A stretch of 64,000 bases of DNA from Polytrichum commune (taxonomy: Eukaryota; Streptophyta; Polytrichopsida; Polytrichales; Polytrichaceae): contig OX485803.1 of assembly GCA_950295325.1 (NCBI GenBank), positions 6,138,001 through 6,202,000 on the forward strand, in the 5' to 3' direction. The stretch's first letter is position 1, and every line of letters begins with the position of its first letter. The position numbers and the translations under genes are program-made. Shown piece by piece: positions 1-64,000 of the stretch. The notes under the pieces are model-generated. The model saw only the letters and a list, made by a program, of their open reading frames with translations. It ran no database searches and had not been told where the DNA came from.

Positions 1-2634
1 CATGTATTTATATGCTTGAAACCATTTAAGATCATAGACCACTTCAGGAGTATGTGCCTTATTCAATGATAAAATACTTTGATTCGATGACATGATGAAT
101 GTTTATGTGCAGCTTCCACTTTGGGCTAAACAACGCGCATTAGTGGTCCCAGGAGAGCTTGCACAGAAAGTGACATTTTGCTTAATCAGCCGGCAAATCC
201 ATTGAAATTAGTAATATTACCCACCGTAGCAGCGTTGATCAAGTAAAGCAACAAAGAGCCTATTATTCCTAAGGTAGATAGGTCTTAAAAGGTTACTTTT
301 TCCAACTAGCCCACTTCTCCTAGGATATGAAACACTCGATTAGTACTAGATGGTTAGCAATTCCAAATCGAGGCAATAACTGCTCTTCTCATAATTGTTG
401 AAGCTCATTTGATTATCTTTTACCCTATCAAAGTGAAGATTCTCATGCTCATTAAATGGTCATATATTCCCCCCCCCCCTCCCCAATTAAGTTTACTATT
501 GAATGTAGATATGATCATGGTGAGACGTCCCTCATTCATGATGACACTATAGGTTGGCGTCATCTCTCTCTCACCCGGAATGGGTATTCTATTTTGAACA
601 TGCCCTTTAATCTCTTTTAAACACATGTCTTTTTGGTATCTATTCTTGGCGTCACACCAAACCACATACGACTCAATTACAAGTGTCTTTATAAGAAAAG
701 CAATTGAATAAGGGTTGTCTACCTTACCTAACCAAGAATTTTGAAAATATGCAATCACGTTGTTTATTTCATCCTAAGCATTCATGAATCTTAGTCTAGA
801 GTTCTAAGGCAAGTCTTTCAACACCGCATGATACCAAATCTGATTGTTGGATCGTGGAGTTTGGAGGTCGCATCCTATTAGCTTTTCTGAATGAGGCAAA
901 TACCTAACGAGGAATTTGTGGTCAAAGTTTGTATGCACCTAGGATCTCTAGTCAAAGTGCAGATTCCATTATTTGTAAGGGGTACCATTTAGAGGTTCAC
1001 ATGTGCTTAGATTGAAACATTTGGGTACCTATTTGGGCATCATACAGCATCTAAAAGAAAAATCTACCACATTCAAACAAGCATGTCTTGTCTTTGAAAC
1101 TTTGCTTATGAATCACCTACCAGATATATGGATGTAGTTTCAAAGAAGTTACAAAACAAGACTCCATTGGGACTTTGTTCCTGCTTCAATTGGAAGTTGC
1201 TCCAACGTGGTTATGCTCATTCAATAAATGTTGGCAACAAGTTTCATAAATGGAAGTGGACGTGTGTGCAACTATGCTTAAAATGGTATGATCACTTTTA
1301 TCTACATACTATCAGAATGTAACCAATTTATGTGTACTTAAACTCCTATAACCTAAAACTAGCTACATATTAAGACAAGTGACCACTTAAATGCACACAT
1401 ACCTCACTCCATAAGCCATTTGCTAAGTTGATGTTATAGAAGTACTCATACAAATGTCAACTTTGTGGAAAAGCTACAAAGCAATCCAGAAGTGTCTCCT
1501 TGTACTGCATCTGCACTCTTTCAAGTTTAAGGTATGAAAGCCCTAATCACATTAATAATGCAAACACTAAAATTGAAGTGTTATTTGGCCAGGCTTGTGG
1601 TTAAGATTGGACACCAAAAAGACACTTGTTACAATGAGACTGGAGTATGTGCTCAAAATAGGGACACCGTTCCAATTTTAATAGTTAACACTATTTGGAG
1701 GGCCTCTGATATCACTTGAAGATAAAGACAAATTTTCACTTTGACCTCAAATTTTTCATCTCAACTACGACTTTTGACACTAGAACTGACAATCTTAATG
1801 ATATACAATTGGTAACTGGATGACACAATTTGCGATCCCATCCAAACAGCCAGAAGAGTATGTGGAGTTGGCAGTGCCTGTTACAGGCCCACATCACCTT
1901 ACAGTGCAATACCCTCATCAACAACTACTATAGTGCTCATTGTCCAAGTGTACACAATTTCTGAAAACTTGTTGCCGACATGCTGACCAAAGAATTTCAA
2001 GCTACTATCCTGGCCCATAGAAATTCTAGCAGACTGAATTGGCAAAAAACAATCTCACATCAAAACCTTGATAATCTGTCTTGATAAATAACACAAATAG
2101 GTGGGCCTACCACACTATCTTTTAACTACTAATTAACTACGGGTCCTATTTGTTAGCATAAAATCAGCTCAAAATTTCATGACCTATGTCTAGCTCTTGT
2201 GGTGAAAGTAACGCTCATTAAAAATAAAAACGAAGTGGAAACCTACTTCAAGAAACCTTAATGCTCTCAAATAAAGCCTACCACAATTATATTGGTGTCT
2301 AAGAATGTCTACTTCAGTCTCCATTGGATCATCACAAAGCCTGCACAGGACATAATCCAAGTGCTTAGCAGTAGATCCTGCACTGTGACATTGATATTGA
2401 ATCCAATGCTTCCCAACAAAATATTGTTGTATACCAGATACTTTAATACTAAGCATGAAGAATATACCTGCAAAAATGTGATAATGCCCCCAGAAATGTG
2501 AGCAGTCTTTTGCAAAAGAGTTGCCCTGCCTACAAAATTTTCTTGCAACCTGTGTATTCAGAACCAGATTAGCAAGCTCTCTAAGGATTGTCAACCCTTC
2601 CATCAGTTTCAAAGCGTTTATGTAATACAACATG
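1..2634. other. Downstream flank of the helicase gene, no gene recognised
   Basis: AT-rich sequence with only short open frames on both strands, none with recognisable domains or splice-supported extension. A C10 tract lies near 469-482. The last few hundred bases probably include the 3' untranslated region of the minus-strand helicase gene. I see no RNA gene or transposon termini here. Confidence 0.5.
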
Positions 2635-5600
2635 TCAATCTTTCCTTCTCTTCACATCCTTGGAGCCTTTTGACACCTCTTTCCTTCCCGTGCTATTCGC
2701 TGATTGAAACCGTGGCTTCTTCTTGAAGACTTGCGACGTACCAATAGGTTTTGGTTTTCGCGCACCTTTTTCTGCTTTTTGAGGTTGTTGCTTCTTTAAA
2801 CCATCAGATTTACCGATGGGTTTTGGTTTTCGAGAAGAAGATTTTGATTGCTGTGTCTTTTTGGGGTCATCAGATTGCAGTGAAACTTCATTGGGTTTAA
2901 AAGCTCTCTGTTTATGAACTTTCGGGAGATTCAGCATCCACGAAGGCACATCACATCCTGATGCAAAAATAACATGCGCAACAGAACGCAATAGAGGTAC
3001 ATCATCTTCCGTATAGAATGTTACTGCATGTCCGGACCTCCCTGCTCTTCCACTGCGGCCTGCCATCAAGGAGGGAAGCACTCAAAATAAATATTTGAAC
3101 ACGTGCAATCCTGAAAGTGCTAAAGGACCACATATTTTAAATGACTTTTTTTTGAGGCATTACAGTTATAACTCAACATGACTTTTGGAAGAACTCTGTT
3201 GTTTTGCATACAACACCTTCCGTGTTCTGTAAGTTTGCGTAGCATGCTTGGAGTTAGTGTGGAGAATTGAACAAAGAACATTCTATATCACTTCATTAAC
3301 AGTCAAACTCGTTTTGGCATGCCAAGAGGTGCTAAAATGAATTTGACCCTCAATGAACCAAAATAGGTTGCTATTTGTTCAAATTCAAACACTCCCTTCA
3401 AGCATGCACCACACATGGAAAGAAATTATTGATATTGTATGTAAATCAACCAATGGAAATTCATAGGGGACCAACCCCCGACGAAAAGGACAACTCTACT
3501 AGCATCCTACTACTGTTTCCTTCTAAAGAATAGGGACTAGCATTCTGCAAATTACCAACACGGACTGAACATCAAATGAAATTTTGCATTCACCATGATC
3601 TTCACTGTTAGAAAAGGAAGAGGTGTCTTCAAAAAAGGAATGATTCAATTACCAACACGATGTATGTAGGAAGAAATTGTAGGGGGGAAGTCATAGTTGA
3701 TGACGCAGTTCAGGCCTTTGAAATCCATGCCTCTCCCCATCAAGTCTGTGGCAATAAGCACCCAGGTCTTCCCCTCCCGGAACTTCTCGACAGCAGCATC
3801 TCTCTGAAATTTTCCAAGTCCTATTGATTTCAAATGCCCATCATATAGCCTCCACCTCACGTATGTGAAGGATACATTTGTAAGGACACACAAAAACCCC
3901 TAGCTCTGAGATTGATACCTCTCCACCCCTACGACCTAGGGTTCATCATCAATCAAACATAATCTTGCAAAAAGTCTAACTGGACCAAACACAGTCTGTC
4001 CAACAGCCTGACTGAAACTTGTGTGCAAATTCAGTATCCTAGCTTAAACGACAACAAATTCACAGAATCCTAAAAAAAAAATCTCAATGTTTTTAAACCT
4101 GAGCTTGAGTGCGATCAGCATGAATGCTATCAACATTGACATCATCAAATGCCAACTCCTTATGTAGCTCCTTTGCTCGCTCCTTGCTTTTCACAAATAC
4201 CAACACAGGAGGTTGCAAACTCTGCAATAACCAGGATAAGAGAGTTATCAATGAAATTTGGGATCAAACTCCGGGTAAGTTGGCTACAAGGTGAGTTTGA
4301 GAGAGTTTTGTGTAAAGTCACCCAAGTTTTGTCAAGGCTTAATTAAATTTAGTGCTGTCAGGCTATTAAAAAACAGCTTTCTAACTTGTCACACTAGGAT
4401 GGGTGGGCCAGGCTAGCCTTGCATAGGCCGATCTGGGACTTCAGGTGGTGTATCCCATGTGCAGACACTATATTAGATCCTAAAGTTCTCTCAAAGTTTC
4501 TAGGATTGCAAGAGGAAGTCCAAGGGGTTTTACCCAAGTTTCAAAATTAGGCTCCAATGCACAACAAGCTAATGAGCTCTTAAAAGAAAATTCTCTCAAA
4601 GATGGACCAAAATCCAAATTTCTTCCCTCTTTGAGTGACTTTACAGATAACTCTAATGTAGCACTAAAAGTTTGTTGATTGCAATTAGGGAGGGCTAAGA
4701 GAAGAACCTGTCATCTTCAGATGCTACAAATCTGATAGACAGAAGTAGCACATGTGTGTACTGGCATAGAAGCACCCTAATGTGATGTTGAAAAACAAGA
4801 GAATCACAGGCAACTAACCTCATTAAAGATTTGTCGTAGTGCAAGAAGCTTTCCCTCCTCACTCCCAACAAACACCAATTTTTGGTTCACTGTTTGTGCT
4901 GCAGAATTTCTGGACCAAAGCAACATGCACAAGCTGCGTAAGTCATCAAACAAGGGAGCCAATATTAAAGGAAACCTTTTGAAACTCTTGGTTCTTAATT
5001 CCAAAGTGTCTAGAAGGCCCAATCTGGGCCTCTCCATGCACAAAAACGTGTATTTGAGCTACATATTTCCATTTTTAGCTAATTGTGTCAAAACTTAACC
5101 TATATAAAATTTCACTCATTCTTCAAGTGGAGTCTGGAATTTTCACATTGGCTGAATACTTTAATGTTGTTCAAGATTTGGGTTCAACTACAAAGCATGG
5201 GGGCGCCGTTGATATACATACATAGTTAGTATTTGGATCATAAATGTCACAGGTGAGCACATTTTTATTTTCTTCTTGATTTAACATAGTGGTAGATATG
5301 GTTTTGTATCTTAATTAGATATGGTTACAAAACCCATGAATATAGGAACCAAAAAATTTGATTCTAAGATATGGTGAGGCTTGTAGAAATTGTCTATATA
5401 GGTTGTTTATTGAGCCTCTTAGTCCTTCAAGGGTTCACCATATGCGTTTCTTAATGAGACAATGATAGACCAGATCAAGTATACAGTTGCAAAGCTAGTC
5501 AATCCCAGAGTGTACTCAAATATGCAACTTTGACAATTAAAAGTTGAGTCCCAACAGTGGTATTGTAAGCACCTCTCCCCAATAGTGATGCGAACAGCAT

Positions 5601-57443: not shown

Positions 57444-58110
57444 GTACATGCCATCCTAAGTTGAAATCACGCATTTCGTGACCATGCACTCTGCCTCACA
57501 TGCTTCATTTTGCTCCTACCTACATGTAGTCGAAATCCAAGGATGGTCTCCAACAAGTTATGAGTGAGCAGGGCGAAGCCAAAGGGGGGGCTCAACCCCT
57601 CTTGACATTGAAGGAAAGCCCCCCCCCCCCCCCCCCTTGGCTTCGCTTATGTTGTCAAAGCTTTGGATATTATCGACATTATCAAAAAAAAATTATGAGG
57701 ATGTCAGCTTGACGAGTTCAAGTCTCTCAATAAATAATCAAATTCGACCACCTCTTGAAATTTTAGAATAAAATATACACTAAATATTTCCATATTATGA
57801 GGTCAGCTCCCCTAAGTCAAAATCTTGGCTTCACCCCATGCCTTATGACTCGATCACATGAAACATATTGATTTTCTGTTCTAGTTCTGGCAGGCTACTG
57901 GGGTAGCTAGGCTTGCTGTTTGCAATGTCCAAGAGACTTGCACACTTATGACTTATGAATAGACTACCGTAAATTCTCCTCAGAATTACCTTTGCAAACA
58001 ACACAGTATCACTCAGTGGCCTCACAAAATTTCCAAACATAGGAATTTTGGGCATTCACCACTTGATGTTATGACACATTTTTGTGCGACCAAAATTTTT
58101 AGTCCAAAAC

Positions 58111-58359: not shown

Positions 58360-58598
58360 ACGTCATGCATCATTATTGTCTCATTTCTTATTAGAAAACT
58401 CTTTACATTTTGGTGTTAATAAAATTCTTAGTTTTCAAAAATTAGTAGGGAATTCAAATAAGATGACAGTTGCTAACTTGGGTAGGCAACACTAGAGATC
58501 TTTGGACTCCTATTTCAAGAGTTCTTGAGAATATTTATATTTGTTTGGAGGTATAAGTTATTATTTCATACCATCTATATTGCTTAAACTCATTGTAC

Positions 58599-58642
<44 letters not shown>

Positions 58643-58781: not shown

Positions 58782-60376
58782 TACTACAAGTTAGGTAGCT
58801 GGAGCTTGTAATTGGATGCTTTTTAGTGTAATTGGTCTTGCACTTTTCTTGACCCCACCTTGAAGAGAGATGAAGTTCATTAACGAATTCATCGGGAAGT
58901 CTTGCAATGGGCGTTATATATCTAGTTCAATACTTTGAGCGCCAAAACATGATTTCCATGCGGTATTATGTAGGGCCCAAACAATGTGGTGATGACTCAC
59001 TTATCCATATCCTAGTACATAAATGAGCATTGCAAGGTCATTGATTCTAGGGAAAAATGTGTCTCCTTGTATCCACTCACAAATAGACACATCAGCAAAA
59101 TTACCTAGCTTGACCACTATGCATTCCATTTTGGATCAAGTTTAGTGAACTTTGAGCATTAAAATTTGCATGGGCATGTTAGTGATATCCACAACAATCT
59201 CTAGAAGAGCACACCTTCACCCATAAGAATAAGAAACACTTTGGTTATTCTTGAATATTATCTTAAGGCCTTAAGGTAATATTAGATCTCCAGATTGAAG
59301 ATGGAGAACATTGAAAAATATCTAAGAATAACCAAAGCGATTCTTAATACTACCTCTAATTGTACCTTAAGGCCTTCTTGTTCAATAATGAAGCAATCTC
59401 CTTGAACTCTAGGATATCCACTACTAGGGGAGTGTTTGACTCTTTAACGCGGGCATTGTTCACCAACAATGGTTGGGTTAGGTCATACTAGAAAGTGAAA
59501 TAGGATGGTGCAACAAATATTTTATTTAGTGTCATACGGTAGTTTATGTCACTATGGTAGCTTTTCTTGTGAATAAGTTTACAAGTATTGTCATGGATGA
59601 TTGAAACTTGGATGAAATCTATGCCAGTTATCAAAACAAAGTTTGGTATATTGTGCATCCTCGCAACACTATAATGAAATACAATATTTTCATGAATGAT
59701 TGACATTCGAATGTAAAAATCACTTAGTAAGTGACAGTAGAATTTGCAGCATTGTAAATTTAGAATGCCCAAAAAAATTCCAAGTAATGACAAATAATGT
59801 CAGGTTTACATTTAGTGTTGGTGAAACTACACAGGCGGTTTACAATTAGTGTTGAGCAAGACAAATACAATTAGTGTTGAGCAAGACACTAGATACAATA
59901 TTGGGAGATCAATTACAAGCGGTCGACTTATTGGGAGACCAATTAATTAGTCGGGGCTGCAAGTCACAAGATTTCTGAATCATGGAAGCCAAAAACCAAA
60001 AAATAAAAATAAAAATAAAAACCACCTGAGTTCAGCTTAGAAGGAAACTTTATTATAAGCTAACTTAAAACAAAATGGCAGCGGCAGAGCCATCCAGCTT
60101 GTGGCCCGAGGACAAGGCCATGTGGGACCCAGCAGCGGGAGAAAGCTAAACTTTCAGCTCCTTGAGTACTTTTTCGTTTTTCTAACTAACGAAAATGTGC
60201 AAAAGCTCTACTGTTCTCCCTCTTGCGAGAAATCATAACGAGACTGAGCAGATACCTTAAACTAGCCTAGGAGTAGGCGGGGTTAGTAAGAGTACACTTA
60301 GGACCAACCTAGGCGTAGTTGCGTAAAAAGCGGAAATTACTAACCAAAAGAGAGTGGGACGCAGGCATGAGGTAAG
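58782..60376. other. Intergenic: palindrome and short tandem repeats, no gene
   Basis: Contains a 30-bp palindrome with one mismatched pair at 59254-59283 (centre ttaaggccttaa) and tandem copies of an acaattagtgttgagcaagac unit at about 59848-59890. A dispersed repeat lies near 59500-59600. GC content rises from about 60060, which may mark the 5' part of the retrotransposon to the right. A cctagg.gtag motif occurs twice near 60267 and 60312. Confidence 0.5.
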
Positions 60377-63300
60377 ATGACACCGGAGGAGATAGCACGG
60401 ATCGACCTTCGGGAGGGCGACTGGATGCCTAAGAATCGGGAATGGCGGGCCACGCACAGCCAAATTGGGCGGGCTATGCGATGGACAACAAAACCGGTAG
60501 TAAGAGATATGACAAATGATAACACGATCATTGCCGACTTCAAGATGAAGATGGCAATGATCTTACGGAATAATGAAAGCATCGAAGATTTACATTTTCG
60601 ACCGGCAACAATGATAAAGAATTTTGAACCGAAAACGTGGAAACGGTTTAAAGGTATAACTAAGGCCATATTTAAATATGGCCTTAAATAGTTGGCAAAG
60701 GTAGAAAGGGAAATGGATGCCATTAAGGGGGAGAAGGTAGATATGGTAGTACGGTGGGCCCTCAACCTAGCGGCAACTAGAATCTTCGGGACGGTAAAAC
60801 ACTGGCCGGCGACGTCGATGCGGGGGGTCCACGCGGAGGAGCCACGCGAAGACGAACGCCCCGCGAACGGATTACGCCGCGAAGGTAAGGCCGCATTGAA
60901 CCGAAGATACATTGGCTCAGTTCACAAGTTCCACCGTTGGATGTATGAAGGGGGGGCGAGTCGGGCCAATGTAGAGGCCACGACTGCGGAGTTATACGAC
61001 TTCGCCCGCCCCAGTTTTACGGGGGAAGTTGTAACGGCGGAGCAAGTCGCCCCGTTCCCGAGGGGCGACGAATATTTAAGAGCATCATGGCAAAATGAAG
61101 CTGCACCAAGGACCCCGTTCCGCATCGAACCGCTTGAAAACGACGTAAACGACCCGGTAATAAAGAAGCTGTGGCGGATTTTACGAGAGGGTGATGGTAA
61201 CCGGGGGCTGGGATACGATCAAATCACGTATCGGACTTTATGGCAATGCGAGAAGATGCCCCTAATAATGTGGCTAATCCACACGTTTAGCCTGCAAACT
61301 AAACTAGGTCTAATCTATCCAGCCTATAAGTTAGGATTCGTGTCCTATATCCCGAAGCCCGGAGCACCAAACACACAAGCTCCAAATTTACGGCCGGTAA
61401 CTTTATTACCGGTATTCTTTAAGATTTTCAGCAAGTATATCACTTTTGTGGCGTACGAGACGATGCGGGAAACGGTTCGGGGGGGCGTATATACATACGC
61501 CCTTTACTTTTCAGATGGGGGTAAATCCGGGAGTGGCAGGCTGTCGGGACGCGAACCTAAAACTTACGGCAGTTTTGGAGGATAGTAGGCATAGGAAAAA
61601 CAACCTATATTGCCTATTTACCGACTTTAAGGGAGCTTTTACCTTGCTACCCCTCGGTTTGATTGTAAAAACGATTGATATTTTACCCGTCTGCCCGATT
61701 CTACGGAACATGTGGAAAGAGACGGCATTGGGTAATCAAGTAAGATTAATCGTGAACGGCGAGGCATCAGAAACGATCACGATAACGAGGGGGGTAGCAC
61801 AAGGTAATACCATCAGTCCTTTGACCTTCGCGGTCGTTAAGGAAACGGTCGCGAAGTGGATCGAACGGGAGTGCCGCGGATATGCGATAGCGGGAATCGA
61901 GGTGAAGGAAATGGATTATATGGATGACGAAGTGCGCGTCGCCGATACGGAGGAGGAAATACGTAAAATGGCGACAATTCAAAGTGAGTTCGCTGAATGG
62001 TCGGGAATGCGCTTTGGCATCCATAAATGTGCATACTGGGGCCGGGAGTTCGTACGGGGGCGAGGGGAAGATGTGGAACTCGCCAACTTTAACCTTTGTG
62101 GCGAGGCAATCCCGCAGCTCGCGGATTACGAAGCCTTTAAGTATTTAGGTGAACATAAGGCCCCCGCATCCGCAAAGACCAATCAAAAGCCGTCGCTGCC
62201 GCGGGGCCCGGACGCCGAACGACAAGAGGCCCACAAAGGTAAGCGGGCCCTCGCCAAATTTAAGGCGAGGGTGGCTCAACTAGATATCCCGCGCATCCAG
62301 AAACTCCACTACGCGGGGAAATTAGATTCCCTATCTCAGGCAGCGCGGCCGTTGATAGAAATCCTTTGCCCGATGAACCCGCCGCCGAATTACATCATGG
62401 ATGAGGCAACCAGGATCCAACACGGCGCGGCGAGGCGGATTTTAGGATGGCCATCTCGAAGAGGGGGCAACCGGCAACTCGATATGAGTACGGATCATCT
62501 CGGGCTAAGGTTACCGAATTTCCGGACAATACGGGATTCAATGTTGGTAAATACGGCGTACGCGTTCGTAAATAATCTCGACCCGCAAATACAGATCCTA
62601 TTTCGGCATATGGTGGAAGAGGCACGCGTGGCGGCAGTAATCCCGCGGGCCCCGCAGGGGAAGATTTTCATGGATTGGGACTTGGCGTACGGTAACACCG
62701 TACGCGACAAGATATGAAGACTAAAAGTTTGGCGTATTGGGAGCCAACCCGGACGGACCCCAAGGCAAGGCGTAAAATCGGAACGCGAGGAAAGGTAAAG
62801 GCCGGACTTACGTGGCATTTTTATACCACGCATGTCAAGCCCTAAGGGTAAGAATCACGGCGGAGGGCCCATTTAAGGTGGACATCCGCAACGGGGAACT
62901 CGAAGGGCTTGAAAGGGTAAAAGTCATCGGCTTATTTAGCGACGTGACGGGTCCAAATGCGCAAAAGATGTTGGAAATGGTGAAGTTGGAACTGAAGGCG
63001 TATACGAAGGAGGCGGTACACCATCGAGACGGATTGGAAATTGTCGAGAATATCGCCTCGAAACAGTTTGCGCATAGCGGGGCCCACGCCGCGGGAAGTC
63101 GAAAGTGGATCCGAACCGCGAGCCTAAGCATGCCCGAATACAAAACGATGATTGCCGCGGCGTTCAATGTACTACCGGTAAAATCGGTAGTAACAACCTG
63201 GATGAGACGCGGTGAAATTTTCTGCGACAACTGCAGGGAACGGAAGAGAGAGACGGTCAAACACCTATTTTACAGGTGTAGATATCCGTTATATGAGGCA

Positions 63301-64000
63301 ATCCGCACCAAACGCCACGACAAGGTAGTTTGCGAATTTTACTGTTGGGTAAAATTACGAGCGGAGAAGGGTAAACTCGGGAGGCTCGACTCGTTCCAAA
63401 TTTGGATGGCCGACAATACGTGGGGCGTCCCAGCGGGAAACGCCCTAATATTCCCGGACATCTTGAATGATGCCCAAATCACAAATCGGAGGTCCGATCT
63501 GATATTTCAATATCAGCCCCCGGCGAGGCGAGGCGACGACGGGCAGATGATTCGACGAAACCATCAAATCGAGATATGGGAGGTCTCGGTTACGATGCAC
63601 AACGCAATCGCGTTGGCTAAACGGCAAAAAACGGATAAGTACAACGAGCTAGTCGATGTATTAAGCCGCAGGTTTCCGCATAGCGACGTGCGGTTCCGCG
63701 CGATGGTGGTTGGAGTAATGGGAACGATACCGGCCTCGATTAAACAAGTCCTACGCGAAATTCAACCGCAAGCGCAAACGTCCTGGGTGATCCATCAGAT
63801 CATCCAAGCGATAGGCAACCACAACCACAAGTTGTGGATAGTACGCGATCAGCTACACAATCGGCGTCGAAATTTCCCAAACGAAGCGGCGGGAACGTGG
63901 GTTCCGCATTGCCGATGGCTTCGAAGGGAGTATTTCAAATACTACGAGAACCTAAGGCAACGCGAAGAGTGGGAGGTCCAACCACGAGAAGCGACGATGG
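60377..64000 (+). mobile_element. R2-like non-LTR retrotransposon with restriction-like endonuclease, degenerate, runs off the window
   Basis: The reading frame runs 60377-60688, TAG at 60689, 60692 to about 61480, a +1 shift at a G7 run (61479-61485), then on to about 62710. Two further single-base shifts near 62710 and 62840 follow before the frame stays open to the window edge. Domains in order: an N-terminal region without visible zinc fingers, then reverse transcriptase. The RT has PKPG...NLRPVTLLPVFFKIFSKYI, FQMGVNPG, motif A LFTDFKGAF (Asp at 61623), motif B GVAQGNTISPLTF and motif C YMDD (61917-61928). A thumb region and a CX2CX9HX4C knuckle (63223-63279) follow. A restriction-like nuclease then shows RRSDLIF (Asp at 63496), IEIWEVSV (Glu at 63580) and KTDKYNEL. 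RT-knuckle-nuclease order is diagnostic of R2-type elements, not L1 or RTE. Local GC is far above the flanks. The 5' end is uncertain and no target site is visible. Confidence 0.85.
60661..60686. repeat. 26-bp perfect palindrome beside the in-frame stop of the retrotransposon
   Basis: A 13-bp half-site taaggccatattt followed by its exact reverse complement, with no spacer. It ends two bases before the in-frame TAG (60689-60691) and encodes TKAIFKYGLK in the element's frame. A chance duplication in inverse orientation or an RNA structural signal are both possible. Confidence 0.9.

Follow-up and report, generated by a model that had tools for sequence, protein, structure and literature searches.

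Non-long terminal repeat (non-LTR) retrotransposons of the R2 clade carry one or more N-terminal zinc fingers and a Myb domain, and insert into the 28S ribosomal RNA (rRNA) gene at CTCTTAAGG|TAGCC; to our knowledge, R2 makes no target duplication. R9 of bdelloid rotifers, which is said to have been placed in the R2 superclade by Gladyshev and Arkhipova in 2009, reportedly makes one of 126 bp at its own 28S site. The long interspersed nuclear elements (LINEs) that we know of in plants are L1 and RTE, and plant L1 carries an apurinic/apyrimidinic endonuclease (APE). R2 is described as an animal element in three papers (PMC12203849; PMC13188248; PMC5035012), two of which (PMC5035012 and PMC13188248) never use the word ‘plant’ in their main text. 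The planarian elements LIN9, LIN24, and LIN26, 28S-specific and discussed with NeSL-related elements (PMC4640811), share with the element described here, by description only, a non-LTR build and specificity for this gene outside classical R2. Among the matches listed from the open-licence PubMed Central (PMC) literature, we found no plant element that is specific to ribosomal DNA (rDNA) and carries a restriction-like endonuclease (RLE). Here we analyse a stretch of 64,000 nucleotides from Polytrichum commune (the window; C1:6138001-6202000, in a genome of 408 Mb with seven large contigs of 42-78 Mb) that ends in a retrotransposon copy. This copy is very probably a decayed, off-target member of a plant R-element, an RLE non-LTR retrotransposon whose working copies would reside in the 25S rRNA gene at a single position, GGATTG|TTCACCCACC, a short way upstream of the sarcin-ricin loop sequence.

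The presumed target site emerged, as the sequence-only reading of the window had proposed, from the retrieval of sister copies (designated here by locus, e.g. L010). We examined 5' ends in ten copies and scanned 3' ends in nineteen. Sister copies outside rDNA open with host 25S rDNA, GGATTG|TTCACCC and onward. Six of the ten 5' ends lie 3-6 nt upstream of TTCACC (GATTG in L010 and L011, GGATCG in L046, ATTG in L043, TTG in L047, and GATAG in L060) and L058 begins at TTCACC itself, so that seven of the ten start between 6 nt upstream and TTCACC. The flanks beyond the starts look unrelated by eye, L046 excepted. Rfam also matches L010 and L011 to large-subunit rRNA (LSU) at this end, though with scores under the gathering threshold. 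Counted from TTCACC, the rDNA piece runs 67 nt to ...CCCTACT in one group of copies and 54 nt to ...GGTTA in the other. Compared with 25S pieces of the host, it is identical at 54 of 54 positions in L010, L011, and L046, at 36 of 36 in L044, and at 32 of 32 in L012; identity is 90.7-94.4% over 54 nt in L047, L043, L060, L058, and L059. The element part adjoining the piece is only 59.5% identical between L010 and L046 (over 111 nt). Because the piece keeps step with host 25S while neighbouring element sequence diverges, the comparison is best explained if the piece is renewed from rDNA at each transposition.

The 3' ends point to the same place. A recognisable terminus (CCCCGACTATG or a variant) was present in thirteen of the nineteen copies, and five of these run on into TTCACCCACCAATAGG in register with 25S and with 0-3 mismatches (28 nt in L011, 57 in L013, 19 in L015, 25 in L046, and 39 in L042). 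No poly(A) follows the recognised 3' ends. Both ends indicate one site: the 3' junction falls at G|TTCACC, and the 5' one lies 54 or 67 bp further down the 25S gene; taken at face value, this offset would be a target duplication. In the 25S pieces L065 and L066, within which no R2 site was found, the sarcin-ricin loop sequence AGTACGAGAGGAACC follows 104 nt after the start of GGATTG. The element thus shows, in off-target copies, the terminal rDNA junctions at one fixed site that are typical of an R-element, and the rDNA at its termini, GGATTG|TTCACCC, is not that of the R2 clade.

Several observations weigh against an rDNA home. Starts are not perfectly uniform: three of ten (L044, L012, and L059) lie 18, 22, and 30 nt deeper in the piece, and letters resembling rDNA, AGTGTTGGAT, stand further upstream in L046, as they do in 25S. 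Such rDNA is missing from eight of the thirteen recognised 3' ends. The duplication length, 67 bp in one group and 54 bp in the other, comes from off-target copies and may include some internalised rDNA, and no target duplication was recognised by eye at copies outside rDNA. We saw no copy inside an rDNA array and found no such array in the assembly, where a 40-nt 25S pattern gave three imperfect matches. The 25S reference is accordingly a set of scattered pieces; L020 and L025-L028 contain the 54-mer without change, and others differ from it. That all copies looked at lie outside rDNA arrays would also suit an RLE element without rDNA specificity that once captured a 25S piece at its 5' end and kept it as a promoter or structural leader; the leader does pair with the piece, and a structural role could conserve it. 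We consider this history quite improbable, since the piece is 54/54 identical to the genome's 25S pieces in subfamilies whose synonymous sites are saturated, and five copies carry in-register 3' rDNA of differing length (19 to 57 nt), the pattern expected when an rDNA co-transcript is read through.

For an element that lives in rDNA, we envisage the following cycle. Master copies would sit in 25S rDNA and be co-transcribed with rRNA. The nuclease would nick the bottom strand at G|TTCACC, and the reverse transcriptase would copy the RNA from the nicked 3' end, a target-primed reverse transcription that we set beside the lack of poly(A). A top-strand cut 54 or 67 bp downstream would then leave the target duplicated over that length. 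The RNA 5' end may be made near GGATTG, probably by a structured and possibly self-cleaving leader that pairs rRNA with the element. Occasional insertion at a non-rDNA place would give off-target copies, and the window copy would have arisen in this way, with 5' truncation.

The leader itself, 999 nt ahead of the open reading frame (ORF) in L010, offers some detail on the last point. Immediately after the rDNA piece comes a stretch of the element that is antisense to this piece (in L010, TTTAGACCGTCGTGAGACAGGTTA versus CTAGCCTGTCTCCGCGGTCTAAA). The predicted duplex energy is below that of all 500 mononucleotide shuffles in eight of the ten copies; shuffles reach it in L047 (10/500) and L043 (38/500), where the signal is weaker. 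The motif CAATC[CT], complementary to GGATTG, is present in 10/10 copies, having also been used to find the stretch, and complementarity to the GGATTG region extends to 9 nt in L010, L011, L012, and L060. A hairpin arm of at least three pairs follows CAATC[CT] in seven of the ten copies, with a mean of 3.9 pairs versus 2.1 when arms are swapped between copies. Arm sequences vary yet pair (GGCTTA/TAAGCC in L060, GGCCCCT/GGGGGCC in L044). Exceptions are L011, where the best arm pairs in a different register, and three copies with only 1-2 pairs by the same count (L010, L047, and L059).

R2 ribozymes form P1 with 28S sequence, and their cleavage lies as much as 36 nt upstream of the junction (PMC3774820); an RNA 5' end in upstream rDNA would be shared by the two systems. 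A self-cleaving leader is plausible here, if on balance somewhat doubtful. With E up to 1, Rfam returned no ribozyme at six loci (L010-L012 hold the leader) and three weak LSU matches; a SCARNA8 match (L013) and a weak mir-425 match (L012) fall outside the element-aligned stretch. A ribozyme with cleavage before GGGTTTAG was dropped, as seven of the ten copies start ~28 nt or more upstream of GGGTTTAG. Nor do we claim a full double pseudoknot like that of hepatitis delta virus: its P2 helix (AGTGG:CCACT) fits some subfamilies by eye, not all. More speculatively, and with rather more doubt, the element could be a deep plant RLE lineage, distinct from R2 and living in 25S rDNA, that keeps ~22 nt antisense to rRNA inside its own target duplication. 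A hybrid fold of rRNA and element in the co-transcript might then free the RNA 5' end (a new self-cleaving or processing fold, half of it host rRNA), or the antisense stretch might align RNA and cDNA with the target. The leaders also contain tandem units of ~93-101 bp with palindromes or inverted repeats (CTCATTCCTCCC..GGGAGGAATGAG; L010:6563-6955, L011:6645-6823), whose number varies between copies.

The protein agrees with an RLE element in the order of its domains. Translation of the window places LFTDFKGAF, GVAQGNTISPL, and YMDD within one frame (61401-62714) and CDNC...H...C followed by RRSDL...IEIWEVSV...K..KY in a different frame (62776-64000). The reverse transcriptase (RT) core with these three motifs, plus the thumb region, occupies 61482..62714 on the plus strand; its Pfam RVT_1 match (E 2.3e-14, 54 bits against a cut-off of 29.6) leaves the domain assignment certain, and it also matches R2 (E 3.1e-8) and human LINE-1 (E 2.9e-7) proteins in the PDB. 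Next on the same strand come a CCHC zinc knuckle (CX2CX9HX4C, 63223..63279), which aligns with that of R2 by hhalign and matches Pfam zf-RVT below cut-off (E 0.0031), and KRHDKVV (63310..63330), which hhalign sets against R2 RHNKIV between knuckle and nuclease. The putative endonuclease core (63487..63642, plus strand) was assigned by sequence comparison and comprises RRSDL, the Glu of IWEV at 63580-63582, and KRQKTDKY. The sequence-only reading had taken SD in place of PD, and YMDD, as hints of a divergent clade. The former turns out to be a minority state, with RRPDL in six of the eight copies covering the site and SD in the window copy and L042, and is probably decay. YMDD, the state of the window copy, stands in seven of the nine rows covering the site and does not describe the whole family (YIDD in L010, YVDD in L047).

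Upstream of the RT, we looked for an APE and for the N-terminal domains of R2. In the window, 60377..61582 (plus strand) encodes the start of the single ORF as far as the first RT motifs; this N-terminal part is broken by a TAG at 60689-60691, and no zinc finger or APE was recognised in it. A 431-aa N-terminal piece that is one open frame in a sister copy (L011:5117-6409:-) matches nothing in Pfam even with E allowed up to 10, and its first 200 aa lack cysteine; the leaders of L010, L011, and L012 hold no frame longer than 92 aa. No upstream APE was therefore found, and a Dualen/RandI element, with both APE and RLE, is not what we see. Pfam likewise recognised no N-terminal zinc finger or Myb domain in the 431-aa piece, a search that a diverged Myb could escape. 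The copies support an RLE-type non-LTR retrotransposon, of the group that includes R2, R4, CRE, NeSL, and Hero, with RT, then CCHC knuckle, then a PD-(D/E)xK nuclease-like region in one ORF.

We then compared the nuclease region with three solved R2 proteins from the PDB, using a plant knuckle-nuclease profile of seventeen rows and 200 column shuffles. The hhalign comparison gave a score of 34.4 (E 8e-5, probability 61%), which 0/200 shuffles reach (maximum 24.9). The alignment spans the knuckle, KRHDKVV (RHNKIV in R2Bm), and RRPDLIF (KPDLIF in R2), and the local match stops just past PD. The Glu of IWE and K..KY follow at longer spacing and are matched with R2 only in a forced global alignment and by eye. 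Other results are less favourable. Taken by itself, the nuclease part matches far more weakly (score 23.7, probability 12%, E 0.002), still above all 200 shuffles (maximum 21.4); an R2 hidden Markov model detects the knuckle only (domain E 0.0017; PD stretch 0.15); phmmer with the RLE piece returns no R2; and two AlphaFold predictions of the nuclease had no usable fold (mean pLDDT 37.1 and 36.5). An IMG/VR search with the RLE piece found no relatives. We thus call the nuclease a putative RLE on sequence grounds only. The sequence-only view of an RLE-type element is borne out by the domain order, the missing APE, and the hhalign match to the R2 knuckle and nuclease.

The RT was placed in a tree of fifteen rows, of which six are host LINEs presumed to be plant L1; one misaligned row (L014:1471-2077) had been left out of the element alignment. 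The element rows group together (100/100), set apart by a branch of 1.32 changes per site, and the six host LINE rows form a clade of their own (100/100) that leaves the element out. An RT within L1 would have refuted the sequence-only reading, and the RT does not fall within these six rows. The best tree sets the element beside the host LINEs (81/80) rather than with R2, and the RT profile ranks human LINE-1 (E 5.9e-13) slightly above R2 (4.3e-12). A topology joining the element to R2 is 2.51 log units below the best tree and is not rejected (approximately unbiased test, p-AU 0.142), with few reference clades in the tree and with human LINE-1 and R2Bm as long branches. With these references, the RT data do not name the element's clade.

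These results bear on whether a plant L1 lineage could have lost its APE and gained an RLE. The RT query found at least 102 matches in the genome, and among the matches listed forty-seven are host LINEs (presumed L1), 26-32% identical and with scores of 63-75 bits, where the best R2 in the PDB reaches 36 bits; together with the profile ranking and the position in the best tree, this favours such an origin. We hold it to be quite unlikely given the separate 100/100 clade of the host LINEs, the long branch of the element, and the unrejected grouping with R2. The presumed L1 LINEs also differ from the element in kind, the latter having an RLE-like region and no APE found. A segmental duplication that carried rDNA-unit fragments into the chromosomes along with the element, leaving rDNA flanks as remnants of larger pieces, would suit the many rearranged 25S pieces scattered in the genome and the few rDNA-like letters beyond GGATTG in L046, but deserves almost no credence, because random breakpoints would not coincide: six copies, each at a different place and spread over five contigs, all start 3-6 nt upstream of TTCACC, and a seventh (L058) starts at TTCACC, with flanks that look unrelated by eye.

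A plant R-element, very probably resident in 25S rDNA, can now be set beside animal R2 (R2Bm, R2Tg). They share the order of RT, CCHC knuckle, and RLE, the RH motif before the nuclease, the lack of a poly(A) tail, and, as far as the junctions tell, a home in 28S/25S rDNA. The plant element differs in its host, its target site in the same gene, its apparently long target duplication, the lack of a recognised N-terminal zinc finger, the Glu as second acidic residue, and a longer loop after PD. The label ‘R2-type’, given to the window copy from its letters, therefore holds for domain order and lifestyle and not for membership of the R2 clade: the site is another, no N-terminal zinc finger was found, and the best RT tree does not join the element to R2. 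R9, known here by description only, differs in host and in the reported length of its duplication (126 bp, versus 54 or 67 bp).

If this reading is true, the range of rDNA-resident RLE elements takes in plants, where the site is a different one within a highly conserved stretch of the large-subunit gene. Such an element would supply a plant enzyme whose presumed target is known to the base, useful for all-RNA gene insertion, and another case of an element building its RNA 5' structure from host rRNA. A further question that it touches is whether plants and animals inherited RLE elements from their common ancestor or plants gained them later.

The element is a long-standing inhabitant of this genome. 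The RLE query gave fifty-four matches at ~28 places by hand count, on all seven large contigs and on C50. Between subfamilies, synonymous divergence (pS) is ~0.7-0.95, which is saturated, and nonsynonymous divergence (pN) is 0.10-0.32; copies of the youngest group differ by 5-7%. Because synonymous sites are saturated while the protein is conserved, the lineages are, to judge from these distances, old, resident, and under long purifying selection. We also considered contamination. The genome has fifty-eight matches to the chlorophyll a/b-binding family and twenty-eight NAC-domain exon matches at ~14 places, and none of fourteen control genomes has NAC. NAC genes are a hallmark of land plants. 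The number of NAC matches is small by flowering-plant standards, which may reflect a non-flowering land plant or a search that reached only some of them. With these plant gene families, copies on all seven large contigs, and the divergence between subfamilies, contamination is rejected. Fourteen equal-scoring chlorophyll a/b-binding matches are clustered within ~95 kb (C5:1751760-1846160).

The window copy proper begins earlier than the 60377 first given for it. By collinear match to sister copies, it extends on the plus strand from 60222 to 64000 and on to C1:6202644, 644 bp past the window end. Locus L009, which holds it, is collinear at 723-5145 (4.4 kb, 93% identity) with L010 on C7 and L011 and L012 on C5, and the last 3.8 kb of the window are matched without a break. 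Looser matches are L013 on C6 (76%) and L014-L017 (~70-74% over shorter or split stretches). The copy is 5'-truncated, without ~0.84 kb of leader relative to L010, and lacks the final 13 nt of the 3' end. In addition to the premature in-frame TAG, it has a second stop at 62715-62717 and frame shifts near 61480-61520 and 62700-62790. With its stops, frame shifts, missing leader part, and missing 3' end, it is dead. The C-terminal part of the ORF occupies 63643..64000 (plus strand), and L009:3292-4593 is open to the C-terminus. Past the window, the ORF has its stop codon at 64093-64095 (window scale), followed by a 3' untranslated region of 549 bp, its end set by comparison.

Some further observations concern rDNA-like sequence and the surroundings of the copy. 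Eight loci (L020, L023, L025-L028, L032, and L033) hold scattered, partly tandem 25S pieces; past CCCTACTGATG (or CATG), their sequence passes into CAACGAGAACAGAAATCT or a variant of it, which we take to be an upstream 25S stretch; these are rDNA-derived repeats. At L059 (C2:22127500-22128200, minus strand), an element 5' end is joined to the final 19 nt of an element 3' end (CCCCCGGACCCCGACTTTG) with rDNA TTTAGACC after it, which makes a tandem or template-jump junction. In the preceding flank, 22 nt are the reverse complement of flanking sequence that follows the 3' end at C2:22105251 in L061. Near the window copy, five tandem copies of a 76-bp unit (95% matches) lie ~0.5 kb downstream of the element, at L009:5671-6051 (C1:6203170-6203550). 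Upstream, the window contains a poly(C) tract at 57619-57637 and adjoining (TA)n and (GA)n microsatellites at 58598-58642.

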